From assembly GCA_003054655.1 (NCBI GenBank), contig QAYZ01000011.1:124001-188000 (forward strand): a stretch of 64,000 nt of DNA, given 5' to 3'. Both the position numbers and the translations under genes were made by a program. This DNA comes from Spartobacteria bacterium LR76. Lineage in GTDB: Bacteria > Verrucomicrobiota > Verrucomicrobiia > Chthoniobacterales > Terrimicrobiaceae. Each line of letters opens with the position of its first letter. The first letter of the stretch is position 1. Under the pieces are notes generated by a model. The model worked only from the letters and a program-made list of their open reading frames with translations, did no database searches and had not been told where the DNA came from. Positions 33,284 to 51,317 of the stretch are shown here, in pieces.

Positions 33284-33994
33284 CTAGGCGTCGCTGTCGG
33301 ACTCGCTGCGCTGGTACTCGCCTCGCGTGAATGACCATGAGTCGCTTTTCCGCAACTGGCGGAGCATCTTGATCAGCTTGGACTCGAGCAGGAAACGGCT
33401 GTGAATGCCGAAGTGGGCGAGGAGGCGCTCGACATGCTTCTCCACGGTGCGGTCGGCGATCTTGAGCTTCTTTGCGATCTCCTCGTTGGTCTGGCCGTCG
33501 AGGATGCCCTCGGCGATGTCGGCCAGGCGCGGGGTGAGTCCAAAGGACTGGAAGTGTCCGTTGGTCAGCGAGAGCCGTTCATCCGCCAGCAAGGCGGCTT
33601 CGTAGGCCTTGAGGGCGTCGGAGATGGTTTTGCGCAATGGAGCGCGGAGGAAGGGCTTTACCAGATACTGAAATGCGCCCTGGTTCACCGCCGAGATGGC
33701 CGACTCCATGGAGGCGTTTGCGGTTAGGATGATGATCTGGGTAAACGGGGAGGAGCGCCGGATGGCCTCCATGATCTCGATGCCCTGGAGGACCTTCGCT
33801 CCCTGGGAGCTCTTGATCTGAAGATCGACGATCGCAACGGGAAAAACCTTCCTCGCGGCCGCCTCGATGCCGAGCTCTCCGGTAGGGTGCCCCTCGACGG
33901 TGCAAATATCTACAAGGAGGTTCTCGACGATCTGCGGGAGGTCGGGTTCATCATCGATCATCAAAATACGCGGGAGATCGAGAGAGGTGGGCAT
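33284..33994 (-). CDS. Response regulator with LuxR-type DNA-binding domain
   Basis: The protein has 236 residues. The receiver domain (residues about 8-130) has the acidic pair in LMIDDEPDL, phosphoacceptor Asp57 in VAIVDLQIK and conserved Thr and Lys in IIILTANAS and YLVKPF. The output is a LuxR/GerE helix-turn-helix at about 155-215 (LTPRLADIAEGILDGQTNEEIAKKLKIADRTVEKHVERLL). It is transcribed away from the PKS-signalling operon across a 674-base intergenic region, which makes it the best candidate for the transcriptional output of that phosphorelay. No kinase is encoded beside it on its own strand. Confidence 0.88.
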   Translation of the reverse strand: MPTSLDLPRILMIDDEPDLPQIVENLLVDICTVEGHPTGELGIEAAARKVFPVAIVDLQIKSSQGAKVLQGIEIMEAIRRSSPFTQIIILTANASMESAISAVNQGAFQYLVKPFLRAPLRKTISDALKAYEAALLADERLSLTNGHFQSFGLTPRLADIAEGILDGQTNEEIAKKLKIADRTVEKHVERLLAHFGIHSRFLLESKLIKMLRQLRKSDSWSFTRGEYQRSESDSDA

Positions 33995-34668
33995 GACTAA
34001 AGCTTTCAGAGTGACGTGACTTACATCAATTCATTGAAGGGTAACCTTGGCAACAAAAAACCCGAAATTTCCTTTTTAGGCAATGACTCGCAATATCTGA
34101 TAAAATACGTGAAGGTACGCAAGCTGTGAATTTAACGTATCGTTTAAGTTGCCTGTAATGAATTGGTTGCGTATTTCCTGTTCGGTGGTCTTTCTGGGCG
34201 GATTGCCGGAGTGAGAGGCGGGTTTGCCAAGAGGAATGCTCTTGTTATTCGAATAAAATAATTCTCAGCCAGATCGCTCAGACAGCTTGCGGCGGGAGGG
34301 TGGAGGACGAGATGAATGCCGGGGGCGGGCGGGCGATGGCCGCGGCGGGCGGGATGGCTGGACCTATGCAAAGAGAAGGGAGGCAGGCTTAGTCTGCCAT
34401 GCGGGAAATATCGTTGGCGGATCAGGCGGGTGCCCGTTTCCAAGTCGGAGAGTTTCCGCTTGGGGAGCGGCTGCGGAGGGTGCGGAGGAGGTAATCCAGA
34501 GAGTGGAATCCGTCTTTTTACGATTAATAAGAAAGTAATCGGGAGGCGGAGCGCGGGCGGAAATGGGAGGCCTCCGGCGGTGAATGTAATGCTATGAGAA
34601 GTGCGAAGCGATCGTGGTGGGGCGAGGTGAGGGAAGGCTAATAAAGATAGCTAAGTATCGCGGCGGGG
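33995..34668. other. Long intergenic region upstream of the PKS-signalling operon
   Basis: About 670 bases without a convincing gene. The left half (33995-34265) is AT-rich against a GC-rich background and contains a perfect 12-bp palindrome TTATTCGAATAA (34245-34256) and an imperfect one around TTTAACG-tat-CGTTTAA near 34132-34148. Either could be an operator for the LuxR-type regulator. The right half is G-rich with only short frames that lack any recognisable protein. The length and AT bias suggest complex regulation of the divergent genes. Confidence 0.5.
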
Positions 34669-37600
34669 ATGTCCCGGGGCCGGCGACGGAATCTTCTGTT
34701 CAAGCTTGGAGAGAGGGGCTGGAATTGGTTAGGTGCCGGGGTGAGTTTGGAACCCCACAGTGACAGGAGGATTGCGATCGTTGGTGCAGGGTGTCGCATG
34801 CCTCCCAATGCGACATCTCTTGCGGCATTCTGGAAGTTTCTGGTGCGAGGCGGCAGTGCGTCGAAGGCGTTGAAGAAAGACCGCTGGGACTGGCGGCAAT
34901 ACTACGACGAAGATCAGAGCCGGCCGGGGAAAAGCTACGCCAGCAAGGCGTCCTATCTCGATCAGGACGTCCGCCAGTTTGATCCGCTCGCCTTTGGGAT
35001 GTCGCCGCGCGAGGCGGAGTCGCTCGATCCGCAGCAGCGCCTGCTGCTGGAGTCGGCGTGGGAGGCGTTTGAAGACGCAGGCTATCCGCTGCACAAGATG
35101 TCCGGATCGAGCACGGGGGTCTTTGTCGGCGGCTTCTGCCTGGATCACATGGTGATGCAGGCGCAGCCCTCCAACCGGCATCTGGTCAACGCCCACTCGG
35201 CGGGCGGAGTGATGATGACGGTGCTGTCCAACCGCCTGTCGCATGCCTTCAACCTGCGCGGTCCGAGCTTGACGATGGATACGGCGTGTTCGTCGTCGCT
35301 GGTGGCCCTGCACTATGCGTGCCAGAGCCTGCTCCTGGGCGAGTGCAGCATGGCCCTGGCGGGCGGGGTGAATGTGATGACCCGGCCGGAGTTTCCGATC
35401 ATCATGAGCAAGGGCCACTTCCTTTCGCCTCATGGAGAGTGCCATACCTTTGACGAAACGGCGGCGGGCTATGGCCGGGGAGAGGGGGCCGGGCTGCTGC
35501 TGCTCAAGCGGCTGGAGGATGCCCTCGCGGATGGCGACCAGATTCATGCCGTGGTGCGTGCCAGCGGAGTCAACCAGGACGGCCATACGGACGGCATCTC
35601 GCTTCCCAACAGCGCCGCGCAGGAGGAGTTGATCCGCAAGGTCTACAGCACGGCTGGAGTGCCTGTGGCGGAGGTGGACTATGTCGAGGCGCATGGCACC
35701 GGCACGCAGGCGGGAGACTCCGCCGAGCTGGGCGCACTGCACCGCAGTTTCTCCGAGGGAAGGTCCCGCAATCTCATCGTCGGATCGGTGAAGTCCAATA
35801 TCGGCCACCTCGAGGCTGCCGCCGGAGTAGCGGGAGTGCTCAAGGCCATCGGCATCCTGAAGAACCGCCAGGTGCCCAAGAACCTGCACTTCAAAAAGCC
35901 CAACCCAAACATCCCGTTTTCGGAGTATTGCATCGAAGTGGCCAGGGAGACGCGGGCCCTGCCTGCTCCCTCCGAGAAGGCGACGGTGTATGCGGCGATC
36001 AACTCCTTTGGCTACGGGGGGACGAATGCCCACGTGCTGCTGGAGTCTGCTCCCGAGCGGGAGGACGTGCCAGCCGCGGCAGGCGGGAGCGAGGTGCGGG
36101 TCATCCCGTTTTCCGCGCAGAGCGACAAGGGCTTGCGGGATCTCGCGGGCAAGTTTGCCTTTCTGCTGGGTCAGCCGGGATATGGCACGCTGGAAGATAT
36201 TGCACATACCGCAGCGCATCGGCGCAGCCATTTGAACTTTCGCGGCGTGGCAGTGGCCTCCAGCGTGGAGGCATTGCGGGCGCAGTTCATCGCGGCCTCG
36301 ACGGGGGAGTCGCATGACGGATTGGTGACGGGTGCCGGAGCTGCTGATCCCGGGGCGGGGCTGGTTTTTGTCTATACCGGGATGGGTCCCCAGTGGTGGG
36401 GAATGGGGCAGGAACTGGTCAAGACCCAGCCTATTGTCGAAAAGACGCTCGACGAGATCGACGCGATCTTCCAGCCCCTGGCCGGGTGGTCGCTCAAGGA
36501 AGCCATGATGGCGGATGAGGCATCGTCCCGCATGGCCAGGACGGAGCTGGCCCAGCCGGCGAATTTTGCCCTCCAGGTGGCGCTCACGCGCTTGTGGGCG
36601 TCGTATGGACTTCATCCCGCCGCCGTCGTCGGCCATAGCGTGGGCGAGGTGGCGTCGAGTTATGTCGCCGGGGTCTACACTCTGGAGGAGGCGGTGCGTG
36701 TGAGCTACTATCGCAGCCAGCTCCAGCAAGGTGCAGCCGGGCAGGGGGCGATGCTGGCGGTGGGGCTGCCCGAGGCGGAGGCCCTGGCGCTGCTGGGCGA
36801 TGCCCCCGGGGTATCCATCGCGGCGGTCAACAGCTTCAACGCAGTCACGCTGTCGGGCGACACCGACCAGCTCAAAGCCATCGCCGCCGGGCTGGAGGAG
36901 CGCGGGGTGTTCCACAAATTCCTGCGGGTGGAGGTGGCTTATCACAGCCCGCAGATGGAGCCATTGCGCGAGCCGCTGCTGGCCGCGCTGGCCGGGTTGT
37001 CACCGAAACCGGCGCGCCTTCCCCTGTACTCGACGGGTTATGGCAGGATCATTCCCGCCGAGGAGTGGTCGGCAGAGTGCTGGTGGCACAATGTGCGCCA
37101 GCCGGTGCGGTTTGCCGCGGCGATCCAGGCGCTGATCGAGGATGGGTTTGCTTCGTTCCTTGAGGTGGGGCCGCATCCCGTGCTCGGCAATTCCATCAAG
37201 GAATGCGCCGCGCATCTGGAGCAAAAGGTGCGGTGTTTCGTGTCTCTGCGCCGGGCGGAGCCGGAGATGGCGCGCGTGCTTGCGACGGTCGGGGAGCTTT
37301 ACTGTGCGGGCTACGATCCCGACTGGACGATGCTCGCTCCGGAGCGCGGCGCGTTTTTGCCGGGACCGCAGTACCCCTGGCAGCGCGAGACGCTGTGGGT
37401 GGAATCCGAGCGGTCCAGGATGGAGCGGCTCGGCCTGCCGGGGCCGGTGTATCTGAACCGTTCGGTGATCGCGCTCAACCCCACCTGGGAGGTGGAGATC
37501 AATCGCAACTACTTCCCGTTTCTCTTCGATCATGGCGTGCAGGACCAGATCGTCTTTGCCGGCATGGGGTACATCGAGGCGGCGATCAGCCTGAACAGAC

Positions 37601-40600
37601 AGTTGCACGCCAGTGCCGCCGTCGTGCTGGAGAATGTCAGCTTCGAGCGTGTGCTGGTGGTGGATTACTCCAAGCTCCAGTATCTCGTGACAGAGTACGA
37701 TGCGGAGGCGGGACGTTTCTCCCTGTCGAGCCGCACGGAGGGAGAGGAAATCGGGAATTTACGCCACTGCCGGGGGCGTTTGCTGCCCCAGGCTCAACCA
37801 GTTGCCCGCAAGCTCGACCTTGCCGCGCTCCAGGCGCAATGCTCGACGCCGGTGGATCGCGAGGCGTTCTACGATGATCTTTCGCGTCGCGGCCTTCATT
37901 ACGGGCCGACCTTTCGCCCGACGCGGGAGATATGGATCGGCGAGGACAGCTATCTGCTGAGGCTGGATGCCTCGGAGACGCTGGCGGAGGACACGCATTA
38001 CCTGCATCCGACGCTCTTTGACGCGGCGATCCAGCCGATTCTGTACCGGTCGGGGATGGCCGGGCTGTATGTGCCCTTTTCGATCGAGCAGTTTGAGTAT
38101 CATTCCCGTCCCAGCTCGAAAGAGCTGTTTGTCTACGGCGAGCTGACATCGCGTACGGCGTCGCGGCTGGTGGCTCATGTCTGGCTGATGGATGCCGACG
38201 GAGTCGTGCATGCCCATGGGCGGCACATGTCGCTGCAGGCCATCGACATGAAAGCCGGGGAGTCGGCGGAGTCGCCTTATTACCAGCTCCGGTGGAAGCC
38301 GTCGCCGCTTGCGGAGGATGGCAGGGAACCCGTCTCCGGTGCCATCATTCTCGCCGACCCGCGGGACTCCGATCTCGTGCTGGCGCAAGAGTTGTCGGCG
38401 GCATTGCCAGGGGCGGAATTGATCGTGCGGGAGTTTGCGAGCGGAACGACCCGGGGCGACTTTTCCCCGGTGCTCGGCGAGGCCTCCGTCGCCAGTCGTT
38501 CGCGGATCATCCTGCTCTGGGGGTCCGGAGGGCAGGCGGCGGGAGATGCCGTGGCGGCTTCGGAGTTATCCGAGCGGGTGGTCGCGCTATTGCAGGCGGC
38601 TGCCCTGCTGCCCGAGGCGCAGGTCGATGTGACGTCGGTCACGGTCGGCGCAAAGGCGGTGCGCGAGGGCGAGACCATCGCCAACTGGCCTGCCTTTTCC
38701 CTCCATGCCATCGGCATGGTGGGCCAGAACGAATATGACGCCATACGCTTTCGCTCCATCGACCTGGATGCCGCGAATACGGAGGCGGTGCTCGCCGAGC
38801 TGGCTGCCGGCAGCAATGGCGAGGTCGCCTATCGCGCCGGGGAGCGGCTGGAGAATATCCTGGAGTCTGCGGATGAGGGAAATCCGACCGCCCGCGTGGA
38901 GGCGCGTTCCCTCGATGAGCCGGTGGAGCTGCAGGTCGGGACCAAGGGGAAGATCGACTCGCTGTATTATGAACCGGCAGAGCGGACGGAACCCGGCCCC
39001 GGGCAGATCGAGGTGCGCATCCATGCGAGCGCGCTGAACTACAAGGATCTCCTCAAGGTCGAGGGCAGGCTGCATCCCGGGGCGGTCGAGGGGACCTACA
39101 ATGAAGGGGAGTTTGGCATGGAATGCGCGGGGGTGGTGCTGAGAGCCGGTCCCGGCAGCGCCTTTGCCCCCGGCGACCGCATCCTCGCTGTATTGACTCG
39201 AGGCTTTCGCAGCATCGCGACCATTGACGAAGGCTTTGCCGTCAGGATACCGCCCGGCTTCGGGATGGACATGGCGGCGGTGCCGGTCGTCTATCTCGCG
39301 GCCTATCACGGGCTGGTCACCATCGCAAATCTCCAGCGTGGCGAGCGGGTGCTCATCCATCATGCGTCGGGAGGACTCGGCATGGCAGCGATCGAGATCG
39401 CGCGCTGGCGGGGGGCGGAGATTTACGCCACGGCGGGGGCGGAGGAAAAGCAGCAGTACCTGAGAGAGCTCGGCATCAGCCACGTTTACTCCTCCCGCAC
39501 GCTCGATTTCGGCCAGCGCATCCGCGAGGATACCGGCGAGGAGGGAGTGGATGTCGTGATCGGAGCGCAGACGGGGCAGGCGATGCATGTGAGCCTCAAT
39601 CTGCTCCGCACCGGCGGGCGGTATATCGAGATCGGCAAGAAAGACATCGCCGAGGACAACAGTCTCCCGCTCCGCGCCTTCAACCGCAACCTCATCTTTG
39701 CCTCGGTCGACATGGACCGGCTGGCCAGGGAGCGGCCTGCCCAGGTTCAGCAGACATTGCGCGACGTGGTGGAGCATTTCGCGCGGGGAGATTTCAAGCC
39801 CGGCCCGGTCCGGGTTTATCCGGCGGCGGAGATCAAGGCGGCCTTTGCCGAGATGGAGCGCAGCCAGCATATCGGCAAGCTGGTGGCGGACTTCTCGCAG
39901 GGCGAGGTGGAGGTGCTCGTCAAAGAGCAGCTCGCGCCGGTCTGTCATCGCGCCGGCAGCTATATCGTGACCGGGGGCACGTCGGGCTTTGGCGTGGTCA
40001 CGGCTGAGTGGCTGGCCACGCAGGGAGCAGGCAAGGTTTACCTCGTGAGCCGGTCCGGCAACAAGGCTGGCGGGTTGTCCGAGGCCGTGGCGCGCATCGA
40101 GGCGGCGGGCACCGAGGTCGAGGTCCTCTCGGTCGATGTCACGGATGCCGGCCAGGTGGCGGATCTCGTGCGCAAGGCTGATACGGCGCCATATGCCCTT
40201 CGCGGGGTGATCCATGGCGCCATGGTACTCGACGACGCCATGATGGCCGACGTGACGGCGGAGCGTTTCCGCAAGGTCTTCCTGCCCAAGGTGGCCGGGG
40301 CGTTGAATCTCGCCGAGGCCGTGAAAGGCGCGACGGCGCTGGATTTCCTGGTCTTCTACTCATCGATCTCCTCGGTGATCGGAAACCGCGGGCAGACCAG
40401 CTATGTCGGCGCCAACCGGGCCCTCGACGGGCTGGCGGGCGTGCTCCGGGAGCGGGGCATCCCCGCGATCTCGCTGAACTGGGGCGCGCTGGCAGAATCC
40501 GGCGTGGTGGCTCGTGATGAGAGGCTGGGCACGGTATTGGCTTCCTCCGGCATCACCGGCCTGGGCAACCGCGAGGCGCTGCAGGCCCTGGGCACGGTAC

Positions 40601-41022
40601 TGAGGGCGGGGAGGGAGCAGATCGGCGTCTTCCTGGTGGATTGGGAGAAATGGCGTGATGCCAATCCCAGGCTCGCCGGGCACGCGATATTCCGCGATCA
40701 GGCGATGCGCTCGCAGACGGCAGGGAACGAGGCGATGGCCCGCATCCTGGAGGAGTTGAAGGATGCCTCCCGCGAGCAGCGGCTGCGTGTTCTTGAGGAT
40801 CGTCTGCAAGAGGTGCTCGCCAAAACCCTCCGGATGGCGAAGGATGTGATACCTATGACCCGCAAGCTCAACGAGATGGGGGTGGATTCGCTCATGGTGC
40901 TGGAACTTAGTCTCGGCATTAAGGAGCAGATCGGCTTGAATTTCTCAGCGATGGAATTTCTCAAGGGGCCGACTCTCCGACAGCTCGCCGCCCTGGCGGA
41001 AAGCCGCCTGTGGGGCGCTTAA
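34669..41022 (+). CDS. Single-module highly reducing type I polyketide synthase (KS-AT-DH-ER-KR-ACP)
   Basis: The protein has 2117 residues. KS, about 33-460: Cys207 in DTACSSS, His342 in EAHGTGT, His380 in NIGH. AT, about 565-870: Ser657 in GHSVGE, with the specificity box VAYHS, which does not clearly match malonyl (HAFH) or methylmalonyl (YASH). DH, about 930-1220: His955 and Asp1118 (LFDAAIQP); the HxxxGxxxxP motif is altered (Gly to Asp959, Pro to Ala964). A structural KR half follows at about 1230-1415. ER, about 1420-1735: NADPH loop HHASGGLGMAA. KR, about 1760-1980: TGGTSGFG, Tyr1912. ACP, about 2030-2110: Ser2074 in GVDSLM. There is no thioesterase. Expected product: a reduced, lipid-like acyl chain. 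The start may instead be GTG 34741, which has a better AGG site. It heads an operon with signalling genes. Confidence 0.95.
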   Translation: MSRGRRRNLLFKLGERGWNWLGAGVSLEPHSDRRIAIVGAGCRMPPNATSLAAFWKFLVRGGSASKALKKDRWDWRQYYDEDQSRPGKSYASKASYLDQDVRQFDPLAFGMSPREAESLDPQQRLLLESAWEAFEDAGYPLHKMSGSSTGVFVGGFCLDHMVMQAQPSNRHLVNAHSAGGVMMTVLSNRLSHAFNLRGPSLTMDTACSSSLVALHYACQSLLLGECSMALAGGVNVMTRPEFPIIMSKGHFLSPHGECHTFDETAAGYGRGEGAGLLLLKRLEDALADGDQIHAVVRASGVNQDGHTDGISLPNSAAQEELIRKVYSTAGVPVAEVDYVEAHGTGTQAGDSAELGALHRSFSEGRSRNLIVGSVKSNIGHLEAAAGVAGVLKAIGILKNRQVPKNLHFKKPNPNIPFSEYCIEVARETRALPAPSEKATVYAAINSFGYGGTNAHVLLESAPEREDVPAAAGGSEVRVIPFSAQSDKGLRDLAGKFAFLLGQPGYGTLEDIAHTAAHRRSHLNFRGVAVASSVEALRAQFIAASTGESHDGLVTGAGAADPGAGLVFVYTGMGPQWWGMGQELVKTQPIVEKTLDEIDAIFQPLAGWSLKEAMMADEASSRMARTELAQPANFALQVALTRLWASYGLHPAAVVGHSVGEVASSYVAGVYTLEEAVRVSYYRSQLQQGAAGQGAMLAVGLPEAEALALLGDAPGVSIAAVNSFNAVTLSGDTDQLKAIAAGLEERGVFHKFLRVEVAYHSPQMEPLREPLLAALAGLSPKPARLPLYSTGYGRIIPAEEWSAECWWHNVRQPVRFAAAIQALIEDGFASFLEVGPHPVLGNSIKECAAHLEQKVRCFVSLRRAEPEMARVLATVGELYCAGYDPDWTMLAPERGAFLPGPQYPWQRETLWVESERSRMERLGLPGPVYLNRSVIALNPTWEVEINRNYFPFLFDHGVQDQIVFAGMGYIEAAISLNRQLHASAAVVLENVSFERVLVVDYSKLQYLVTEYDAEAGRFSLSSRTEGEEIGNLRHCRGRLLPQAQPVARKLDLAALQAQCSTPVDREAFYDDLSRRGLHYGPTFRPTREIWIGEDSYLLRLDASETLAEDTHYLHPTLFDAAIQPILYRSGMAGLYVPFSIEQFEYHSRPSSKELFVYGELTSRTASRLVAHVWLMDADGVVHAHGRHMSLQAIDMKAGESAESPYYQLRWKPSPLAEDGREPVSGAIILADPRDSDLVLAQELSAALPGAELIVREFASGTTRGDFSPVLGEASVASRSRIILLWGSGGQAAGDAVAASELSERVVALLQAAALLPEAQVDVTSVTVGAKAVREGETIANWPAFSLHAIGMVGQNEYDAIRFRSIDLDAANTEAVLAELAAGSNGEVAYRAGERLENILESADEGNPTARVEARSLDEPVELQVGTKGKIDSLYYEPAERTEPGPGQIEVRIHASALNYKDLLKVEGRLHPGAVEGTYNEGEFGMECAGVVLRAGPGSAFAPGDRILAVLTRGFRSIATIDEGFAVRIPPGFGMDMAAVPVVYLAAYHGLVTIANLQRGERVLIHHASGGLGMAAIEIARWRGAEIYATAGAEEKQQYLRELGISHVYSSRTLDFGQRIREDTGEEGVDVVIGAQTGQAMHVSLNLLRTGGRYIEIGKKDIAEDNSLPLRAFNRNLIFASVDMDRLARERPAQVQQTLRDVVEHFARGDFKPGPVRVYPAAEIKAAFAEMERSQHIGKLVADFSQGEVEVLVKEQLAPVCHRAGSYIVTGGTSGFGVVTAEWLATQGAGKVYLVSRSGNKAGGLSEAVARIEAAGTEVEVLSVDVTDAGQVADLVRKADTAPYALRGVIHGAMVLDDAMMADVTAERFRKVFLPKVAGALNLAEAVKGATALDFLVFYSSISSVIGNRGQTSYVGANRALDGLAGVLRERGIPAISLNWGALAESGVVARDERLGTVLASSGITGLGNREALQALGTVLRAGREQIGVFLVDWEKWRDANPRLAGHAIFRDQAMRSQTAGNEAMARILEELKDASREQRLRVLEDRLQEVLAKTLRMAKDVIPMTRKLNEMGVDSLMVLELSLGIKEQIGLNFSAMEFLKGPTLRQLAALAESRLWGA

Positions 41023-41049
41023 CATTGACTACCAAGACCTTTATCGACC

Positions 41050-42447
41050 GTGGAAAAAGCACTTGCCGGAATTGATAGCCTCGTCGCCTTCGTCAACACC
41101 TCCGGAATCCGGGGGCGTGGAACATTGATCCACATCTCGAGGTCCGTGGCGGTTTTCGAGGTATATAATCCCTTCTCCCTGATCCAGATGAGCGAGGTCC
41201 TCCAGGAGATCTCGGTCATGCGCGGCGAGCGTGTGATTTACAAGGGCCGGGGCGTCGTCACGAGCATCGTCTCCACCGGGCTGATGGTGATCGTCTCGGT
41301 CACGCTCATCGACTCCTGGAGCGCGCTGAATCACCTGGAGCCCGGCGCGGCGCTGAGCGAGGAGTTTGGCAAATTCATTAGTGATTGGGAAAGCGGGCTG
41401 AACATCTCCGATGGCTATCAACTCGCGGTGAATAAATTTTCCAACTTCCTGGCGGAGACCAGCCGGTGGATCGAGGAGGCGGAGACGGCCATCGTGGGCG
41501 ATATCAACGCCCATCCGGAAAAGGCGGCGCGGTTCCGTGAATCGATCGAGCAGGTCGTCACCGGGAAGCTTTCGCAACTGCTGTATCTTTTCCAGGACGA
41601 GGCAGCCCGGGTGCCGGAGGAGGACTCGATGATCTACAAGGCGTTTGCCCGTCGCGAGATTCATCCCTATCTGCTCTGCGCCCCCTTTGTCTGGAGGACG
41701 TTTTACAAGCCGCTGGGCTATGCGGGGGATTACGAGATGGTGAACATGCTGCTCCAGGAGTCGCAGACCACGGGAGCGACCACGTACGCGCGGATCTTTC
41801 ATGAGCTGACCAGCAGCGTGGCCGCGTGCATCGCGCATCGCAACCGCGTCACGATCATGGAGCGCACGCTCGGCGAGGAGGCCGAGCGCGTCCAGGACGA
41901 GCAGCGTGTCTTTACCGCGCTCACCGTGGCATGCGGCCCGGCGGTGGAGATCCAGCGATTCATCCGCCGCAACCCGCGGTCCAGCCAGTGCGCGCTGCAC
42001 CTCATGGATTTCAATGAGGAGACGCTGGAGTACGTGAAGCTGCGGACGGCCGAGGCCATCGAGGAATCGGGCAACAAGCCCGCACTGAAGTTCATCCAGA
42101 AATCCATCGACGACCTGCTCAAGGACATCCACCTGGAGAGCGAGGGGTTCCTGCCCAGCTACGACATGATCTACTGCGCGGGGCTGTTTGATTACTTCCC
42201 GGACAATGTCTGCCGCAACCTGCTCGAGCTTTACTACCGGTGGGTGCGGCCGGGCGGTCTGTTGCTGACGACCAATGTGCATCCCAACAATCCCGAGCGT
42301 TACCTCATGGAGCATCTGCTCGAGTGGTATCTGATCTATCGCAATGAGGAGGAACTGCTCAGCCTGGCGCCCAGGGGCTCCGAGGGAGAGGTCTATGCAG
42401 ATGAGACGGGGGTCAATGTGTTCCTAACGATCCGCAAGCCTCTATGA
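41050..42447 (+). CDS. SAM-dependent methyltransferase, PhcB-like (3-hydroxy fatty acid methyl ester signal synthase family)
   Basis: The protein has 465 residues. The N-terminal 100 residues form a beta-rich PilZ-like region (VAVFEVYNPFSLIQMSEVLQ). The middle has the diagnostic FYKPLGYAGDYEMVNMLL and AHRNRVTIMERTL. The SAM-binding core starts at residue 293 (VACGPAVEIQRFI) with an acidic strand-2 end in LHLMDFNEETLEY and YDMIYCAGLFDYFPD. From memory this layout matches the family of Ralstonia PhcB, which makes methyl 3-hydroxypalmitate or myristate as a quorum-sensing signal. It lies 27 bases after the PKS gene and overlaps the kinase gene by 4 bases. I infer that it methylates a PKS- or fatty-acid-derived carboxylate. 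SAM methyltransferase is sure; the signal role is inferred. Confidence 0.75.
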   Translation: MEKALAGIDSLVAFVNTSGIRGRGTLIHISRSVAVFEVYNPFSLIQMSEVLQEISVMRGERVIYKGRGVVTSIVSTGLMVIVSVTLIDSWSALNHLEPGAALSEEFGKFISDWESGLNISDGYQLAVNKFSNFLAETSRWIEEAETAIVGDINAHPEKAARFRESIEQVVTGKLSQLLYLFQDEAARVPEEDSMIYKAFARREIHPYLLCAPFVWRTFYKPLGYAGDYEMVNMLLQESQTTGATTYARIFHELTSSVAACIAHRNRVTIMERTLGEEAERVQDEQRVFTALTVACGPAVEIQRFIRRNPRSSQCALHLMDFNEETLEYVKLRTAEAIEESGNKPALKFIQKSIDDLLKDIHLESEGFLPSYDMIYCAGLFDYFPDNVCRNLLELYYRWVRPGGLLLTTNVHPNNPERYLMEHLLEWYLIYRNEEELLSLAPRGSEGEVYADETGVNVFLTIRKPL

Positions 42448-45065
42448 GCGCCGACAGTGTGGCGGAGGCCAGGGATCACGCGCTGCGACTGAGATACCGG
42501 GCGTATAACTCGGAGAAGCTCGCCTATGGGCTGATGGTCCTCAGCGGGCTCTCGGTGCTGGTGGTGCCGGGGGGATTCGTCCTCGATTACTTCCTGTATC
42601 CGCACGAGTTTCTGACGTTTCTCGCGGTGAGGCTGGCCACGGCTGCCTTCCTGCTCCTGCTGATCGGGGTGCTGTATCTGGAGAGGAAGAGCCAGCGGAT
42701 GATGCTGATCAAGTCGCTGGGAGTGCTCTCGGCCCTGAGCGTGAACTTCGCCATGTGCTTCATGATCTACCGGACGGATGGGGCGAAGTCGCCGTACTTT
42801 GTCGGGCTGATCCTGGTGCTCACCTGCTGGTCGATCCTTTCGCCCTGGACGGTCGTGGAGACGGCCAGCATGTGCTTTCTCTCCATCCTCGCCTTTCTCC
42901 TGGCCTGCATCCTGAATCCCGATTTTGAGGCTCCGGGATCGATTCCCCTGCTTGGTTTTGGCGGTTTCTTTCTGCTCATTACCGCGACGGTGTGCGTGGG
43001 TATTACCTTTTATCTGGCCAGGGCGCGGTTTGAGGAGTTTCGGCTGCGGCATCAGCTCGACGAGCAGAACCGGGAGCTGCAGGACCTGGATCGGCTGAAG
43101 ACCCAGTTCTTTTCCAATGTCAGCCATGAGCTGCGGACGCCGCTGACGCTCATTCTCGGTCCGGTCGAGACGATCCTGAGCCGGAGCGAGGCGCTCGACC
43201 AGAAGGTGCACGACGGGATCATCCTGATCCATCGCAACGCGCTGCGGCTGCTCAAGCTCATCAACGACCTTCTCGATCTGACGAGGCTCGATCAGGGAGC
43301 CGAGGTCCTGCGCAAACGGGAGATCCCGACGGCGGCCTTTATCAAGGGTATCGTCGATTCCGTGCGGCACCTGGGGCTTTCCAAGAATCTCCGGATGAAG
43401 ATCGAGGAGAGCCAGCCCTCGGTGAAGCTGATTGCCGATCCGTCGAGGCTGGAAAAGGTGCTGGTCAATCTCCTGACCAACGCGCTCAAGTACACGCCAT
43501 CCGGCGGGTTGATCACTGTGCGGTGGTATACTCGTGACGGGGAGACCTGCATCGAGGTGGAGGATACGGGAGTCGGCATTGCCGAGGAGGAACTGCCGCG
43601 CATCTTTGACCGGTTTCATCAGGTGCGGAGCAATCTGGCCAATCGCAGCCAGGGCGTCGGGATCGGGCTGGCGCTCGCGAAGGAGCTGGTCGTCGAGCAC
43701 GGCGGACGCATCGAGGTGGAGAGCGTCGTCGGGCAGGGGAGCACATTCCGCGTCTGTCTGCCCCAGGGCGACGGGGCGGAGGGAGTGGAGGCGCTGGAGC
43801 CTGGGACGGGCGAGGGCGGAGATGAGCCATTTGAGCAGGCATTTCGCTCGGCGGATCGAAGCTGGCGGAGTGCGCCGGAGAGCCGGGCGGAGCCGGAGTT
43901 TTCCATCGTCGGGCAGGGCGATAAGACCGTGCTCGTGGCGGATGATGAGCCCGACATGCGCAACTATGTCGTCTCGCTCCTGGCGGAGAGATACCGGGTG
44001 ATCCAGACCCCGGATGGCGTGCACGTCGGCGCTCTCGTCGCAGAGCATAAGCCGGCGATCGTTTTGCTCGACTGGATGATGCCGGGCAAGGATGGCCTGA
44101 CGGTCTGCCAGGAACTCCGCGCCAATGAGCAGAACAGCGACCTGAAGATCGTGCTGCTGACCGCTCGCGTGGACGAGCAATCCAAGATCGACGCGCTCCA
44201 GGCGGGAGCGGATGATTTTCTGACCAAGCCCTTCAGCAGCATCGAGGTACTGACCCGCATCGACAACCTGCTGAGGTCGGTGCGCCTGCAGGCGGACCTG
44301 CGCGCTCGCAATGAGGAGCTCCTGGCCGCGATGGAAAAGTTGAAGAGCACGGAGATCATGCTCATCCAGAGCGAGAAGATGAACGCGATCGGCTCCCTGT
44401 CGGCGGGGCTGATGCACGAGATTAACAACCCGCTGAACTACACGCTCGCGGCGGTCAGTTTCGCCAAGCAGTTCCAGAGTCAGCTCAGCCCGGAGATGCA
44501 GGAGGTGGTCGCCGACATCGAGGAGGGCATGACGCGGGTGAGCGACGTGGTGACGAACCTCAAGACCTTCGCCTATCCGGAGCGGGCCGGGGTGACATCG
44601 CTCTTCACGGTCGAGGAGGTGCTGCAATCTGCCCGCAAGATCATGGCTCGCGATTTGCAGGGCATCGAGGTGAAGTCGGAGATCCCTGCCAGTCTGGCGA
44701 TTCAGGGCCAGAAGACCCAGATGATCCATCTGTTTATCAACCTGTTTGCCAATGCGGCGCGTGCGATCCAGGAACAGCCTCAAGGGGGAGGGAAGGAGAT
44801 CACCGTCTCGGCATCGGTTGACGGATGCGTCGCAAGGATCGACTTTGCCGATAGCGGACCGGGCATTCCCGAAATGATCCTGGGTCGCATCTTTGAGCCA
44901 TTCTTTACCACCCGCGATGTGGGGTCGGGAATGGGGATGGGACTTAGCATCTGCCACACCATCATGGAAGCTCACCACGGCAGCATCACCGCAGATAACC
45001 GGCCGGGAGGCGGGGCGGTATTTACCATCACTTTGCCACTCGCCGAAAACCAGCCCTATATATGA
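42444..45065 (+). CDS. Hybrid sensor kinase with HK-REC-HK architecture, PhcS-like position
   Basis: The protein has 873 residues. About six membrane helices lie in residues 30-205 (LMVLSGLSVLVVPGGFVLDY, FLAVRLATAAFLLLLIGVLY, LLGFGGFFLLITATVCVGIT) with almost no periplasmic loops, as in sensors of hydrophobic signals. First kinase: HisKA His228 in NVSHELRTPLTLI, HATPase with QGVGIGLALAKEL. Receiver: about 490-610, Asp543 in VLLDWMMPG. Second kinase: His658 in GLMHEINNPLNY and HATPase with GMGMGLSICHTI. Two complete kinase cores around one receiver in a single chain is unusual. It overlaps the methyltransferase and next response-regulator genes by 4 bases each, so it is probably the receptor of the signal made by the two upstream genes. 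Confidence 0.88.
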   Translation: MSADSVAEARDHALRLRYRAYNSEKLAYGLMVLSGLSVLVVPGGFVLDYFLYPHEFLTFLAVRLATAAFLLLLIGVLYLERKSQRMMLIKSLGVLSALSVNFAMCFMIYRTDGAKSPYFVGLILVLTCWSILSPWTVVETASMCFLSILAFLLACILNPDFEAPGSIPLLGFGGFFLLITATVCVGITFYLARARFEEFRLRHQLDEQNRELQDLDRLKTQFFSNVSHELRTPLTLILGPVETILSRSEALDQKVHDGIILIHRNALRLLKLINDLLDLTRLDQGAEVLRKREIPTAAFIKGIVDSVRHLGLSKNLRMKIEESQPSVKLIADPSRLEKVLVNLLTNALKYTPSGGLITVRWYTRDGETCIEVEDTGVGIAEEELPRIFDRFHQVRSNLANRSQGVGIGLALAKELVVEHGGRIEVESVVGQGSTFRVCLPQGDGAEGVEALEPGTGEGGDEPFEQAFRSADRSWRSAPESRAEPEFSIVGQGDKTVLVADDEPDMRNYVVSLLAERYRVIQTPDGVHVGALVAEHKPAIVLLDWMMPGKDGLTVCQELRANEQNSDLKIVLLTARVDEQSKIDALQAGADDFLTKPFSSIEVLTRIDNLLRSVRLQADLRARNEELLAAMEKLKSTEIMLIQSEKMNAIGSLSAGLMHEINNPLNYTLAAVSFAKQFQSQLSPEMQEVVADIEEGMTRVSDVVTNLKTFAYPERAGVTSLFTVEEVLQSARKIMARDLQGIEVKSEIPASLAIQGQKTQMIHLFINLFANAARAIQEQPQGGGKEITVSASVDGCVARIDFADSGPGIPEMILGRIFEPFFTTRDVGSGMGMGLSICHTIMEAHHGSITADNRPGGGAVFTITLPLAENQPYI

Positions 45066-46078
45066 CGACCAACGATCCGAATCCGCGTTGCGGAATCCTT
45101 TACATTGATGACGAAGAAAAAGCCCTGAAGTACTTCCGCATGGCTTTCGCCGAGAAATTCGAGATTTTTACGGCGAGTTCCGGGCGGGAAGGTCTGGAGA
45201 TTCTGAAGAAAGAAGCGGGGCGGATCGGCGTGGTGATTTCCGACCAGCGAATGCCGGAGATGCTCGGCGCCGAGGTGCTGGGCATCGTGCGGGATCAATA
45301 TCCGTCGATGGTGCGCATCATCACCACGGCGTACTCCGACCTGGAGAGCGCCATCCAGGCGGTGAACAAGGGCAATATCTACCAGTATGTGGTCAAGCCC
45401 TGGGAGATCCGCGATCTCGGGATGGTGCTTCAGCGTGCGGCGGACTATTTCCAGGTGCTGACCGAGCGCAATGAGCTGCTGGCGCTCAAGATGGCAACCT
45501 TGCAGCGCATCCTTTGCAGCGACCGGGTCAAGTGGCTGCTGGTGTATGCGCAGTCCTGGGAGCCAACGGCACGGGAGATCCTCCAGCGCGCCTTGCTGGC
45601 GGCGGTGCAGGCATTGCCCGCCGATCCGTCCTTTCTTTCCTCGCCTGCGGCGGCGGCCCGCAGCTTTGAGATCGGGTCCTTGATTCGTTCCGAGCTGGCA
45701 GGCGCGGCGGCGGTGGCTCCGGCGCTGGAGGCATTGCGCAAATCTCCTCCCGCGGCTGAGGCGGCCTGGGAGGCGCTGACCGGAGATCTCGCGGAGAAGC
45801 ATGGGCTGACGCCCGCGGGAGAGTTTTCGCTGGCCTTTGCCAGCCCGGCCTCAGGCGCGGCGCTGCACCGGGATCTGTTTGGCTCCCTCCTGGGAGGAGC
45901 GGGAGATACGGCATCCCTGCGGTTCCTGGAGTGCCTTTACGCGCTGGCTTCGGCCAATGCCGTCGCGACGGTGACGATCGGAGACATTTCAGCACAGGTG
46001 CCAGCCTCGGCCTCCGAGGAGGCTGTGGTCGACGCGCTGGCCGCGAAGTTTGCCTCCTGGGACATAGCCCGCTTATAG
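45062..46078 (+). CDS. Response regulator, PhcQ-like, with unknown C-terminal region
   Basis: The protein has 338 residues. The receiver (residues about 10-130) has the acidic pair in LYIDDEEKALKYF, Asp61 in VISDQRMPE, Thr in ITTAYSDLESAI and Lys in YQYVVKPWEI. This SDQRMP / TTAY / KPW pattern is shared by PhcQ and by some HD-GYP regulators. After a helix the C-terminal 190 residues are Ala-rich and helical with no DNA-binding, kinase or EAL/GGDEF motif; I cannot assign them. It overlaps the kinase gene by 4 bases and precedes a second, related regulator. Confidence 0.8.
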   Translation: MTTNDPNPRCGILYIDDEEKALKYFRMAFAEKFEIFTASSGREGLEILKKEAGRIGVVISDQRMPEMLGAEVLGIVRDQYPSMVRIITTAYSDLESAIQAVNKGNIYQYVVKPWEIRDLGMVLQRAADYFQVLTERNELLALKMATLQRILCSDRVKWLLVYAQSWEPTAREILQRALLAAVQALPADPSFLSSPAAAARSFEIGSLIRSELAGAAAVAPALEALRKSPPAAEAAWEALTGDLAEKHGLTPAGEFSLAFASPASGAALHRDLFGSLLGGAGDTASLRFLECLYALASANAVATVTIGDISAQVPASASEEAVVDALAAKFASWDIARL

Positions 46079-46101
46079 GCGAAAGGACCGGGATTACCTG
46101 C

Positions 46102-47316
46102 ATGGATCACAAAGGCATACTGCTGGTCGATGACGAGGCGCTCGCGCTGAAGTACTTTTCGAAGGCCTTCGGACAGCGCTTTCCCATCTATGCGGCGTCT
46201 TCCGCCGCCGAGGCCCTGCAGGTGCTCGAAGAGCATGCCCAGCGTATCGGGGTGGTCGTCACAGATCAGCGCATGCCCGAGGCCACCGGAGTGGAGCTCC
46301 TCACCGAGGTTCGCAACAGATACCCGGGCACGGCGAGGATTCTGACGACGGCGTACTCCGACTTCGACGTTCTCGTCTCGGCCATCAATGTCGGAGCAGT
46401 CCATTCCTTCGTGGCCAAGCCTTGGAATATCGGCGACCTGGAGCGCACGCTGGTGGAGGCTTTGGAAACCCGGAGGCACAGGCTGCCGGGCGGCCCCGGG
46501 CTGGCCCTGCCCTGGGATGAGGCGGCACCCAGTGGCACGGACGACCGGATCTATGATGTCGGCCTCATCGCGGCGAGACTGGGGCACTATGTGCACAATG
46601 CGCTGTGCCCGATGACCTTCCTGCTCGATCAACTGATCGCCAACAAGCCTGTGGGGCAGATTTGCTCGCTGGAGTTTCTGCAGGAGGTCCGCAACCATAT
46701 TCACGAGGTATCGCGGACGTTGAAGGAGTTTGAGCTGGTCAGCCGGCCCCTGCGAGACCGGGATCGCGAGTGGCTCGACCTGAGGGCCGTGTTTAACAGC
46801 ACCCTGGCGGAGATGGTTTCCATCCGGGAGCAGAAGCAGTTGCGGATCGAGGCGATCATCCCGGCGGATTTGCCGCAGATCCGTGGTTCGGCGGGCCATA
46901 TCGGGAGGCTGTTTCGGTTCATGATCGCCGAGGAGGCGGTTTCCCTGCCGGCTGAGAGCCTGTTGCGCATAGTGTTTTCCAGTCATGTCGAGGAGGGCGG
47001 GTGCCAGGGCGTGGATATTGAGTTTGAGGATTTCAGCCCGGTTTCCGCGAGCATCGACCCGGGGAGCTTTCTGCTGCCTTTTCACGTGAGGAGCGGAAAC
47101 CCGCGCGAGTTTGGGGTGTTCCTGGCGGCCTGCTACTTCATCGCCCGCCAACATGGAGGAACCTTCGAGGTGCGCCGGAAGGAGCAGGGAGGAGACGGGC
47201 TTTATTTTCGCGTTTTTCTCCCGATGGAGGACCGGGGGCTTCCTCCTGAGGGAACGGATTTTCTCGGCAAGTCGCTTTCCGGGCAGTACAATGCATCGTC
47301 CTTTCATGATAGCTGA
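46102..47316 (+). CDS. Response regulator with degenerate histidine-kinase-like C-terminus
   Basis: The protein has 404 residues from ATG 46102. The receiver closely resembles that of the preceding gene (LLVDDEALALKYFSKAFG, Asp55 in VTDQRMPE, TTAYSDFDVL, AKPWNIGDL), so the pair looks like a duplication followed by divergence. The C-terminal part has an H-box-like helix (ARLGHYVHNALCPMTFLLD) and an ATPase-like end (FGVFLAACYFIARQHGGTFEVRR). The glycine-rich ATP lid motifs are missing, so it may be a pseudokinase or a docking partner. It lies 23 bases after the previous gene and overlaps the next. Confidence 0.75.
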   Translation: MDHKGILLVDDEALALKYFSKAFGQRFPIYAASSAAEALQVLEEHAQRIGVVVTDQRMPEATGVELLTEVRNRYPGTARILTTAYSDFDVLVSAINVGAVHSFVAKPWNIGDLERTLVEALETRRHRLPGGPGLALPWDEAAPSGTDDRIYDVGLIAARLGHYVHNALCPMTFLLDQLIANKPVGQICSLEFLQEVRNHIHEVSRTLKEFELVSRPLRDRDREWLDLRAVFNSTLAEMVSIREQKQLRIEAIIPADLPQIRGSAGHIGRLFRFMIAEEAVSLPAESLLRIVFSSHVEEGGCQGVDIEFEDFSPVSASIDPGSFLLPFHVRSGNPREFGVFLAACYFIARQHGGTFEVRRKEQGGDGLYFRVFLPMEDRGLPPEGTDFLGKSLSGQYNASSFHDS

Positions 47317-48421
47317 GCGCCCCCATAGGAAAGTCCTGGTCGTCGATGACGAACCGCTGGTGCGGGAGACGCTCGATTATTGCCTGAATGACGAATACGA
47401 CGTCACGGCTGCCGCCTCGGGGGAGGAGGCGATAGAGCTTTCCAAACAGCAGGATTTCCCGGTGGTGCTGCTCGATCTGCGGATGGATGGCATTTCCGGC
47501 CTGGAGACGCTGAGGCGGCTCAAGCAGCTTCACGCCACGCAGAATGTGGTGATCCTGACGGCCTACGAGAGTACGGAGTCGGCGATTGAGGCGCTGAACC
47601 TCGGGGCTTACAGCTATCTGACCAAGCCGTTCCGGCAAACCCGGCTCAAGGAAGTGATTTCCCGGGGCATTCACGATTACGATCAGAATACGTGCCGGGT
47701 GCAGGAGATGCAGCGGCGCCTGATGGGCGTGCATGATTCCTTTTTGTCCCTGCTCTGCCACGAGTTTAACACCCCGCTGACGTCGATCCTCGGGTTCTCC
47801 GAGTTATTGTCGGACGCCGCCCTCGACGAGGAGCAAAAGGCGTGGGTCGCCAATGTCCAGAAGTCCGGCCACCACCTCCATGACATTCTCATGGAGATCG
47901 TCGACTATATCGGTGCGTCCCATCTGGCCAGTGAAGGCGTGAAGGAGGAGTTCACCTTGCGGAGCGTGCTGGCCAAGGCCGTGGCACCGCTGGTTTCCCG
48001 GGACTTTGTTGTCCGGCTGGAGGAGGACGAGATGCTGGACTTGCGCCTGCGCGGCGCATCCCGGTCGGTCCAGATGATCGCCAGGAAACTGGTGCGTATC
48101 GCCTCGCACCAATCGCGAAACGTGCTGTTGCGGGCCAATGTGGAATACATGCCCGGCACGGATGCGCAACGCCTGACCGTGGTCGTGCAAAATACCGGCC
48201 TGGTGGAGGGGCGGTCCGGGATCGCGCGGATCGAGCAGCTTTTTGAGCCTTACTTCTTCCGGCCGACGGAGGAGAGCACGGGATTCAGCAAGAGCCTGGG
48301 GTTGGAACTGGCCACATGTCGGCGCATCGCGGAGTACGCGGACGGCACCGTCGTCTGCCGGATCGGCCTGAACAAGGAGATCGAGTTTGCCGCCACGCTC
48401 CTTGTCGATTTGATCGACTGA
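47291..48421 (+). CDS. Response regulator-histidine kinase fusion, PhcR-like
   Basis: The protein has 376 residues from ATG 47291; ATG 47306 is an alternative. The receiver comes first (VLVVDDEPLVRETLDY, Asp62 in VVLLDLRMDG, ILTAYES, YLTKPFRQTRL). A HisKA helix follows with His157 in LLCHEFNTPLTSILGFSEL. The HATPase region is weak (GFSKSLGLELATCRRI replaces the usual GLGL). A receiver followed by a kinase core is the layout described for Ralstonia PhcR, which supports the Phc comparison. It is the last gene of the operon: the next element is a 170-bp inverted repeat and then a convergent gene. Confidence 0.8.
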   Translation: MHRPFMIAERPHRKVLVVDDEPLVRETLDYCLNDEYDVTAAASGEEAIELSKQQDFPVVLLDLRMDGISGLETLRRLKQLHATQNVVILTAYESTESAIEALNLGAYSYLTKPFRQTRLKEVISRGIHDYDQNTCRVQEMQRRLMGVHDSFLSLLCHEFNTPLTSILGFSELLSDAALDEEQKAWVANVQKSGHHLHDILMEIVDYIGASHLASEGVKEEFTLRSVLAKAVAPLVSRDFVVRLEEDEMLDLRLRGASRSVQMIARKLVRIASHQSRNVLLRANVEYMPGTDAQRLTVVVQNTGLVEGRSGIARIEQLFEPYFFRPTEESTGFSKSLGLELATCRRIAEYADGTVVCRIGLNKEIEFAATLLVDLID

Positions 48422-49002: not shown

Positions 49003-49180
49003 GGCGCGATGTGGCGGCGGCAAGCCGTGTTTTTAGAGGGGAATGTCGCGGGCCGCAATCCTCAAACGAGGTTAAGGACTTCATTTGGGCCTGAAACATG
49101 GGTCAGGGGGGCGGCGTGAGAATTCCTTGTCGCTCCGGCGGCAAAGGGGTACCAAGGCTTGCTCCCTCGAAGGCGCATTC

Positions 49181-50662
49181 ATGGCATCTGAGCTTCCCTT
49201 AAGCACTCGATTGAGCAAGACGGTCTCGGCGGATTTTTTCCGACCGCTGACCCGTCCGTCTGCGCCTGTGTATGTCGATTGCGCCTGCCGGCTGGAGGAG
49301 GAGGCGGGTCTTGCCGGGCGATTGCCGCTGCTGGATGCCCAGCAGATCATTCGCGAGGTGCTGCTGGCTCATCCGGCGGTGCATTTTGATGAGGATGAGG
49401 GTGCGTTGCTGCGGGATGTCCGCCAGCGGGCCAGTGTCTTCCTGACCAAGCTCCTGGCGGCAGGCTGGGTGGAGGAGCAGACGCTCGGGCTGCATGACCG
49501 GCGGATCATTATTTCCCCCGGGCTGCGGCTCCTCATGGGCATGCTGCGCACGCTGGTGGAAGATCAAGTCGCCGAGCTGCAAACCTTTGCCGATACGCTG
49601 CGAGGAGTCTGCGAGACGCTGGAGCGCACTCATGTCCTCGATCCCCTTCACCAATCGGGCGACGACCTGCGCGGGACGGTGCATGATCTCAACCAGCGGC
49701 TCGATCTCGCGGTGTCGCAGCTTTATTCGGTCGAGAAGTTGATCGCGGGTTTTGAGATGCGCCAGCGGCACTCCGAGTCTCCGCTGGAGACGCTGCAGGT
49801 TTTTTACACGGAGTTTTCGCGCGGCCAGCACATGGTCTGCTACGATGTGTTGAGCAAGGGCGGGCTGATCTCGCGGCTCCGCGCGGCTCGGGCCAAGGTG
49901 AGCGATGGGCGGGACGATCCGCTGACCCGCGACCGGCTGGCGGAGGGTTTGCGGGAGCATTACGGGTGCGACGAGGCCGAGGCGGCGACGAGGGCCAATA
50001 CGATCCTCATGCGGCTGGAGCGCAGTCTCGGCGGGCTGGGCGAGATCGCCCGTGCCATCGACGAGCGCATGGCGGCCTTTAACCGGCTCTCGCAGCAGCG
50101 CTACCGCTACCAGACGGAGATTCGTGGCCGGAGGCCGGAGCTGGTGAAGGCGTACTGCGATGCCATCAACCAGGCTCATGGCGGCGGACATTTCCGCATC
50201 TTTGCCAATGCCGCGCCGGATTTCCGCCCGCTTTGCCCGGAGACACGATTTTTGCACGGCACGGAGTCGCTGTGGAAAATGCACAAGCGGCGCACGCCCG
50301 CCGATCTCTCCTTTGCCACGGGCCGGGCCACGCCGGAAGATGAGTCCGCCGCGCTCGCCGCCCTGCGCGAGCGCCAGCGGCTAGCCCTCACCCCGCTACG
50401 CGCGGCCAAGCTGGTCGCGAAGTTTCTCCCGAAGAAAGGGGAGAATGGCGCGGTCGGCGACTTTGCGGTGGAGAACACGGACGAACTCCTCGATCTGCTC
50501 GCCATCGTGGCCTACGACCACGCGCAGGATGAGAACGGGCGCACGGTTCGCTGGAAGGTCGACGGCCTGCGGCGTTCCTCGGGGCTGGAACCTGAAAAGG
50601 TCGCCCGCGACGCGCAACTCGATTGGCTCATGGACCGCTTTGAGGTAAACCGCACGCAATGA
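49181..50662 (+). CDS. jetA: Wadjet JetA-like kleisin (DUF5716, MukF/MksF-like)
   Basis: The protein has 493 residues. The start is ATG 49181 with GAAGG seven bases upstream; an earlier in-frame start gives a poor N-terminus. The N-terminal winged helix (SADFFRPLTRPSAPVYVDCACRLEEEA, VFLTKLLAAGWVEEQTL) is followed by long helices (LRGVCETLERTHVL, HDLNQRLDLAVSQLYSVEKLI) typical of the kleisin of Mks/Wadjet condensins. The C-terminal winged helix lies at about 420-490. JetA links the SMC-like ATPase heads. The gene overlaps jetB by 4 bases. In Wadjet defence the complex recognises and extrudes plasmid DNA; in MksBEF it organises chromosomes. Confidence 0.85.
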   Translation: MASELPLSTRLSKTVSADFFRPLTRPSAPVYVDCACRLEEEAGLAGRLPLLDAQQIIREVLLAHPAVHFDEDEGALLRDVRQRASVFLTKLLAAGWVEEQTLGLHDRRIIISPGLRLLMGMLRTLVEDQVAELQTFADTLRGVCETLERTHVLDPLHQSGDDLRGTVHDLNQRLDLAVSQLYSVEKLIAGFEMRQRHSESPLETLQVFYTEFSRGQHMVCYDVLSKGGLISRLRAARAKVSDGRDDPLTRDRLAEGLREHYGCDEAEAATRANTILMRLERSLGGLGEIARAIDERMAAFNRLSQQRYRYQTEIRGRRPELVKAYCDAINQAHGGGHFRIFANAAPDFRPLCPETRFLHGTESLWKMHKRRTPADLSFATGRATPEDESAALAALRERQRLALTPLRAAKLVAKFLPKKGENGAVGDFAVENTDELLDLLAIVAYDHAQDENGRTVRWKVDGLRRSSGLEPEKVARDAQLDWLMDRFEVNRTQ

Positions 50663-51312
50663 CCGACGAACGCACCGATCCCCTCTGGCCCAGCTTTTGG
50701 GCCGATGTCGCCGCCGAGGACCGCGCCCCGCTGCGCGACATCCTTGCGGAGTTGCTCGGTCGCGGTGTGCTGCTGGGCGACACCGGCAGCGGGCGGGAGC
50801 TTTTCCTGCTGGCGCGGGATCATCATCGCTTCCGGCTGGAGGATTACCTCGCTCCGCTCGGGCTGGAGCTCATCGTGGACGACGAGGCGCTGCTCCTGCA
50901 GGCGCGCCCGCGCATGGAGACGTGCCAGCTCCTCGGGAACTTCACCAAGGACGAAACCCTCATCCTCCTCACCCTCTGGCGGGTGTGGGACGAGGCGCAG
51001 ACGGCGGGCACCAGCTCGGCCGTGTTGATGCGGCTCGACGATCTCTGGGAAAAACTCCGCGTCTTCTTTGACCGGATCGAGCCTCCCGAGAAATCCCAGA
51101 TCGAAGCCGCGCTCAGCCGCCTGAAGCGCTACCGGCTCATTCGCACCCAGCGCCCGGAGGATATGACACAATCCGGCGACCTCCTCATCGAGGTGCTGCC
51201 CTCGCTGGCGCGGGCCATCCCGTTTGACTCCATCGAGCAATGGCGCGAGCGGGTTGACATGGCCTCCCCTCGCGATGGCGAGCCGGAGACTGAAGAACCC
51301 TCTATTTCCTGA
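50659..51312 (+). CDS. jetB: Wadjet JetB-like protein (DUF4194, MukE/MksE-like)
   Basis: The protein has 217 residues. It matches DUF4194: an early helical and winged-helix region (APLRDILAELLGRGVLL, DEALLLQARP), LTLWRVWDEAQTAG, and a second winged helix IEAALSRLKRYRLIRT, with an acidic tail. JetB is the KITE subunit that binds the kleisin JetA. It overlaps jetA by 4 bases and is followed by jetC after 5 bases, so all three are translationally linked. Confidence 0.87.
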   Translation: MTDERTDPLWPSFWADVAAEDRAPLRDILAELLGRGVLLGDTGSGRELFLLARDHHRFRLEDYLAPLGLELIVDDEALLLQARPRMETCQLLGNFTKDETLILLTLWRVWDEAQTAGTSSAVLMRLDDLWEKLRVFFDRIEPPEKSQIEAALSRLKRYRLIRTQRPEDMTQSGDLLIEVLPSLARAIPFDSIEQWRERVDMASPRDGEPETEEPSIS

Positions 51313-51317
51313 TCCGC

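Follow-up and report, generated by a model that had tools for sequence, protein, structure and literature searches.

Gene content and surroundings of the locus

The window analysed here, a stretch of 64,000 nucleotides, belongs to a soil/bioreactor bacterium of the Verrucomicrobiota whose genome (4.75 Mb) is 96% complete. It carries an operon of six co-directional genes that encode, in this order, a PKS, a PhcB-type methyltransferase, a sensor kinase and three receiver proteins. From the PKS to receiver C, the successive junctions are of 27, -4, -4 and 23 bases, followed by an overlap:

33995-34668 (+): intergenic stretch of 674 bases before the PKS; likely the promoter region, an inferred and putative assignment
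34669-41022 (+): type I PKS of the MAS type; single module KS-AT-DH-ER-KR-ACP by Pfam, with no thioesterase and no loading module
41050-42447 (+): PhcB-type SAM methyltransferase, 27 bases after the PKS; assigned from identity to PhcB, a tree and an AlphaFold model
42444-45065 (+): PhcS-type sensor kinase (P0003), overlapping the methyltransferase gene by 4 bases; Pfam HisKA-HATPase-REC-HisKA-HATPase and an N-terminal membrane part
45062-46078 (+): PhcQ-like receiver A (P0004), overlapping the kinase gene by 4 bases; REC and a C-terminal extension of unknown fold
46102-47316 (+), from its ATG: PhcR-like receiver B (P0005), after a 23-base gap; REC and a kinase-like C-terminal part
47291-48421 (+), from its ATG: PhcR-like receiver C (P0006), overlapping receiver B; REC, HisKA and a degenerate ATPase part

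The open reading frames and junctions given in a preliminary description of this DNA (gaps of 27 and 23 bases, the others overlapping) are borne out by the coordinates, and the Pfam domains agree with its account of a single-module reducing PKS, a HK-REC-HK membrane kinase and three response-regulator proteins. In the closest named relative, a Verrucomicrobia MAG (L061), the entire operon is collinear and the methyltransferase is 95% identical. The PKS may start about 21 codons further downstream than listed; its L061 copy is 2096 aa long.

No gene was assigned between the PKS and a divergent regulator (33995-34668). This regulator, a REC-GerE (LuxR/NarL-type) response regulator at 33284-33994 (-), lies just upstream of the PKS and is kept in L061 (2211-2921); no receiver match was found upstream of the operon in L062. 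It could be the output regulator of the operon. On the other side, the genes at 49085-54659 match JetA, JetB and JetC of a Wadjet-type SMC system (JetC1, E 3e-132). JetD was not found beside them, the next gene (54685-55698) encoding an alpha/beta-hydrolase-like protein. The Jet genes, from 49085 on, are a unit separate from the Phc-type operon.

Relationship of the signalling genes to PhcB, PhcS, PhcR and PhcQ

Phc signalling is known from plant-associated Burkholderiales, in which the signals are simple 3-hydroxy fatty acid methyl esters, and the output of the system is the LysR-type regulator PhcA. For comparison, reference proteins were searched for in 299 genomes of Ralstonia's family, 11 of which form a group about 70% identical to L098. 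We recognised them by the residues published for R. solanacearum and R. pseudosolanacearum, namely R22 in PhcB, and L161 and H230 in PhcS (PMC6989110, PMC11960443). The PhcB of the 11-genome group has an arginine at residue 22, and L174, the one member translated throughout, encodes a PhcS with both L161 and H230. The published phcQ offset and R154 were not matched in the Ralstonia genomes read, and membership of the R. solanacearum species complex could not be demonstrated for any sampled genome.

The window methyltransferase, present as a single copy in the host genome, is 41% identical to PhcB of the genus Ralstonia over 453 aa. Scanning 84,980 species genomes with the family alignment returned more than 560 relatives, including proteins from Cupriavidus, Paraburkholderia, Hydrogenophaga and a strain labelled Ralstonia sp. 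that are 41-45% identical over the whole length. The equivalent of PhcB R22 is R23 in the window protein, and it is an arginine in 38/46 relatives. In a tree of 66 rows, the window protein falls within the clade of full-length PhcB-type proteins and the short methyltransferases, which are 24-27% identical, fall outside. The AlphaFold model (pLDDT 85) comprises an N-terminal six-stranded beta domain, a central helical region and a C-terminal class I methyltransferase fold. Judged from its sequence, the window methyltransferase is a member of the PhcB family over its full length, N-terminal domain included. The preliminary description had named it PhcB-like and had stated that a placement outside the PhcB family would refute its proposal; both identity and tree place the enzyme inside.

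The substrate is a different matter. A fold search with the model matched class I methyltransferases in general, with 3ocj, a protein of unknown function, as the best hit (Z 20.7), and thus says nothing about what the enzyme methylates. CheR, a carboxyl methyltransferase family, is matched weakly by 17 of the 46 relatives. NCBIfam, which holds no PhcB model, gave no match for the methyltransferase. A PilZ-like reading of the N-terminal beta domain was considered and could not be shown, the domain being barely covered by the fold search. Short PhcB-related methyltransferases that lack this N-terminal domain were also seen on many Rhizobium plasmids (L033, L034), and EAL-domain genes adjoin them in both records opened.

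The multi-TM sensor of the kinase spans approximately residues 16-205. Compared with PhcS sensors, the membrane part of the kinase family gives an alignment of 204 columns (E 1.4e-55), in which the stretch 'MIxxTxGxxSPYxxGLxL' is shared. The PhcS kinase region (residues 186-442) aligns to residues 614-868 of the window kinase with 39% identity (E 1e-57), H658 of this second kinase part (HK2) being the equivalent of PhcS H230. Between the sensor and HK2 lie a first kinase part (HK1, H228) and a receiver (REC, D543). From these alignments, the protein reads as a PhcS into which a receiver and another complete HisKA-HATPase have been inserted. This TM-HK1-REC-HK2 architecture is common to relatives in Planctomycetota and other groups, whereas the Burkholderiales proteins do not have the cassette. 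In L040 (10589-13306), two separate genes 72 bases apart, TM-HK1 and REC-HK2, take the place of the hybrid kinase gene.

Receiver A matches the PhcQ profile over 225 columns (E 8e-46; C-terminal part alone, E 5e-7) and is 43% identical to PhcQ of the genus Ralstonia over 152 residues. Receivers B and C are PhcR-like with low identity; the C-terminal part of receiver B has no Pfam HATPase match and its ATPase part is apparently degenerate. Pfam detected no DNA-binding domain in any of the three receivers. The earlier assignment of kinase and receivers to PhcS, PhcR and PhcQ is upheld by these comparisons, with the inserted HK1-REC cassette as a refinement.

With PhcBSRQ of Ralstonia, Cupriavidus and Paraburkholderia, the window operon therefore shares a PhcB-type methyltransferase, N-terminal beta domain included, a sensor and kinase of the PhcS type, receivers like PhcR and PhcQ, and a tight co-directional arrangement with methyltransferase then kinase (phcB first, then phcS). 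It differs by the dedicated PKS in front, the HK1-REC cassette inside the kinase, the three receivers with the PhcQ-like one first, and its phylum, Verrucomicrobiota. A PhcA orthologue was not identified either; the host genome has 12 genes with a LysR substrate domain, none near the operon.

Phc-type operons without a PKS were found in Planctomycetota, other Verrucomicrobiota, and Alpha-, Beta-, Gamma- and 'Delta'-proteobacteria (examples outside Betaproteobacteria are among L070-L091, L094, L101, L115 and others). Those outside Betaproteobacteria have the methyltransferase, the TM-HK1-REC-HK2 kinase and the PhcQ-like receiver in common with the window, but no adjoining PKS. The surprise first voiced at a verrucomicrobial PhcB is thus only partly justified: the PKS coupling is special, while PhcB-type operons are spread over several phyla. 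Among the operons seen, an anammox-group planctomycete MAG has two PhcB-type methyltransferase genes in tandem (L089, 8278-11383), and on the Paraburkholderia graminis plasmid pPHS1_P a Phc-type operon is followed by pel exopolysaccharide genes (L031, 19983-40488).

Linkage and predicted chemistry of the PKS

The order PKS, methyltransferase, kinase, receiver is found in 12 genomes, that is the window and 11 further ones (at least 11 others overall): L061, L062, L063 (G131; L002 is the same genome), L064 (G048), L036 (G039), L065, L066, L067, L068, L069 (G340) and L072 (G290). All are Opitutales/Chthoniobacterales-type MAGs. In the further genomes the PKS lies 17-60 bases upstream of the methyltransferase wherever its frame is intact; in L067 the frames are broken along the whole locus, probably by sequencing errors. 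The PKS-linked methyltransferases of the 12 genomes form one clade (SH-aLRT 99 in the 66-row tree), and so do the KS domains of the PKS-linked genomes (SH-aLRT 98), with the same internal order. Pairwise identities of the two proteins are strongly correlated (r=0.95, a value reached by 0/5000 Mantel permutations), but correlated divergence is also expected from the vertical descent of two neighbouring genes. Across 388 genomes of the phylum, a KS of at least 57% identity occurs in exactly the six genomes that have a PKS-linked methyltransferase; the next KS, at 51%, belongs to a genome without a methyltransferase match. If genomes were independent, this six-of-six coincidence would have a probability of about 2e-13 by chance; they are not, and the figure is only a guide.

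The preliminary description had allowed that the two genes might be paired only by chance in this genome, which would have refuted it. That PKS and Phc operon are fortuitous neighbours is hardly credible in view of the 12 genomes and the six-of-six coincidence, and we rejected it on that coincidence and the permutation result: the pairing is conserved and co-inherited. The PKS coupling arose once in the sampled set, leaving aside L042 and L087, which are weaker, separate cases and belong to another clade. In these two records (L042, 1770-10998; L087, 9580-21039), PKSs of organisation AMP-binding-ACP-KS-AT-C-MT-KR-ACP immediately adjoin PhcB-type methyltransferases of that other clade, possibly a second, independent pairing; given the other PKS type and the other methyltransferase clade, they were left out of the count of 12. 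A fusion was also seen on an Enterobacter ludwigii plasmid (L032, 13078-16215): a PKS protein (KS-ACP) has at its end a methyltransferase domain with a 24% match to the PhcB-type protein over residues 40-439, which makes it a PKS line with a fused PhcB-like domain.

Conserved linkage can also be read as regulation, the signal being an ordinary FAS-derived 3-hydroxy acyl chain and the PKS its target, making a co-regulated lipid or secondary metabolite. Homologous operons that lack a PKS are frequent, and the chains that they use presumably come from FAS; the Ralstonia phc system does control a PKS/NRPS product, ralsolamycin (PMC9197120). A target gene, however, need not be the first of the operon, 17-60 bases before the signal synthase in every genome of the clade, and this PKS group was never seen without the methyltransferase among the 388 genomes. 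We regard the PKS as target as unlikely, without dismissing it.

By phmmer, residues 35-2108 of the PKS match mycocerosic acid synthase (MAS) collinearly, and MAS is its closest solved structure. Like MAS-type iterative PKSs, it is collinear over its whole length as KS-AT-DH-ER-KR-ACP and has no thioesterase; unlike them, it shares an operon with a signalling methyltransferase, and its sequence is distant. The host genome has no other type I PKS and one PPTase match, in a 250-aa frame. The catalytic motifs are in place: KS C-H-H, AT GHSVG, ER GGLG, the KR SYN triad with LDD, and ACP DSL. The DH retains both its His and its Asp and, close to the His, carries the substitutions G to D and P to A; the AT motif VAYHS fits neither textbook extender signature.

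The LDD motif is the established signature of B-type KRs, which give an (R)-3-hydroxyl, as is found in the known Phc signals. It is present in 9/11 aligned PKSs, the remaining two having LED and LGD, and it predicts the same (R)-3-hydroxyl here, although this chemistry is inferred. A subclade (L065, L066, L069, L072) differs from the MAS type in that the ER cofactor (NADPH) motif is degenerate or lost, with ER length kept and KS, AT, KR and ACP motifs intact; we infer that chains made there should keep double bonds or hydroxyls. In the absence of a thioesterase, one possibility is that the methyltransferase esterifies the ACP-bound chain directly, a release step that is likewise inferred.

Long branched lipids of the cell envelope are known products of MAS-type PKSs. 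Together with the structural match to MAS, this leaves room for a PKS and methyltransferase that produce the methyl ester of a membrane or storage lipid, the kinase then sensing the membrane state or lipid of its own cell without any diffusible signal. We find this quite improbable: sensor, kinase and receivers are homologous to a known diffusible-signal system, and the operon contains no lipid-attachment gene.

Proposed signalling circuit and its significance

We consider it probable that the window operon serves Phc-type signalling between cells and includes its own synthase for the signal chain. By sequence, it belongs to the Phc family of operons and has a PKS in addition. We observed its gene content, the homology of all signalling parts to PhcB, PhcS, PhcR and PhcQ, the catalytic motifs and the conserved, co-inherited PKS-methyltransferase linkage. 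Most likely, the PKS builds the acyl chain, the methyltransferase esterifies it and the kinase senses the ester, a chemistry that is inferred and not shown. First, the MAS-type PKS would iterate on a starter acyl group to leave a reduced acyl chain on its ACP, its B-type KR setting (R)-3-hydroxyl groups. The PhcB-type enzyme would then transfer a methyl from SAM to the carboxyl of this chain, and the methyl ester would leave the cell to be bound by the membrane sensor of the PhcS-type kinase. Phosphate might pass within the kinase through HK1 H228, REC D543 and HK2 H658, then to the PhcQ/PhcR-like receivers, which, without a DNA-binding domain, would in turn act on some regulator that has yet to be identified. 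The substrate, product, release step, ligand, path of the phosphate and output are all inferences, no chemistry or expression data being available. Moreover, a PKS is absent from most Phc-type operons and hence dispensable for the enzyme family, which counts against this explanation. Quorum sensing is not shown, since no product, density response or PhcA orthologue is known.

We lean, with little more than even confidence, towards a class of quorum-sensing signals in which a dedicated iterative PKS makes the acyl chain and a PhcB-type enzyme methyl-esterifies it, with subclades making different chains (ER kept or ER cofactor site lost) and co-evolving sensor kinases. Searches of the open-access literature gave no description of PhcB together with Verrucomicrobia, Planctomycetes or PKS-made methyl ester signals; most subscription papers were outside the search, and the novelty of a PKS-coupled Phc operon is provisional.

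Homologous Phc operons are now found in several phyla, and one lineage has a dedicated PKS locked to the signal methyltransferase. If the chemistry holds, this would open up a family of polyketide-derived signals that can be read from the genes of poorly cultured bacteria, with synthase-sensor pairs amenable to joint testing, and a branch of the Verrucomicrobiota may communicate by polyketide-type methyl esters.
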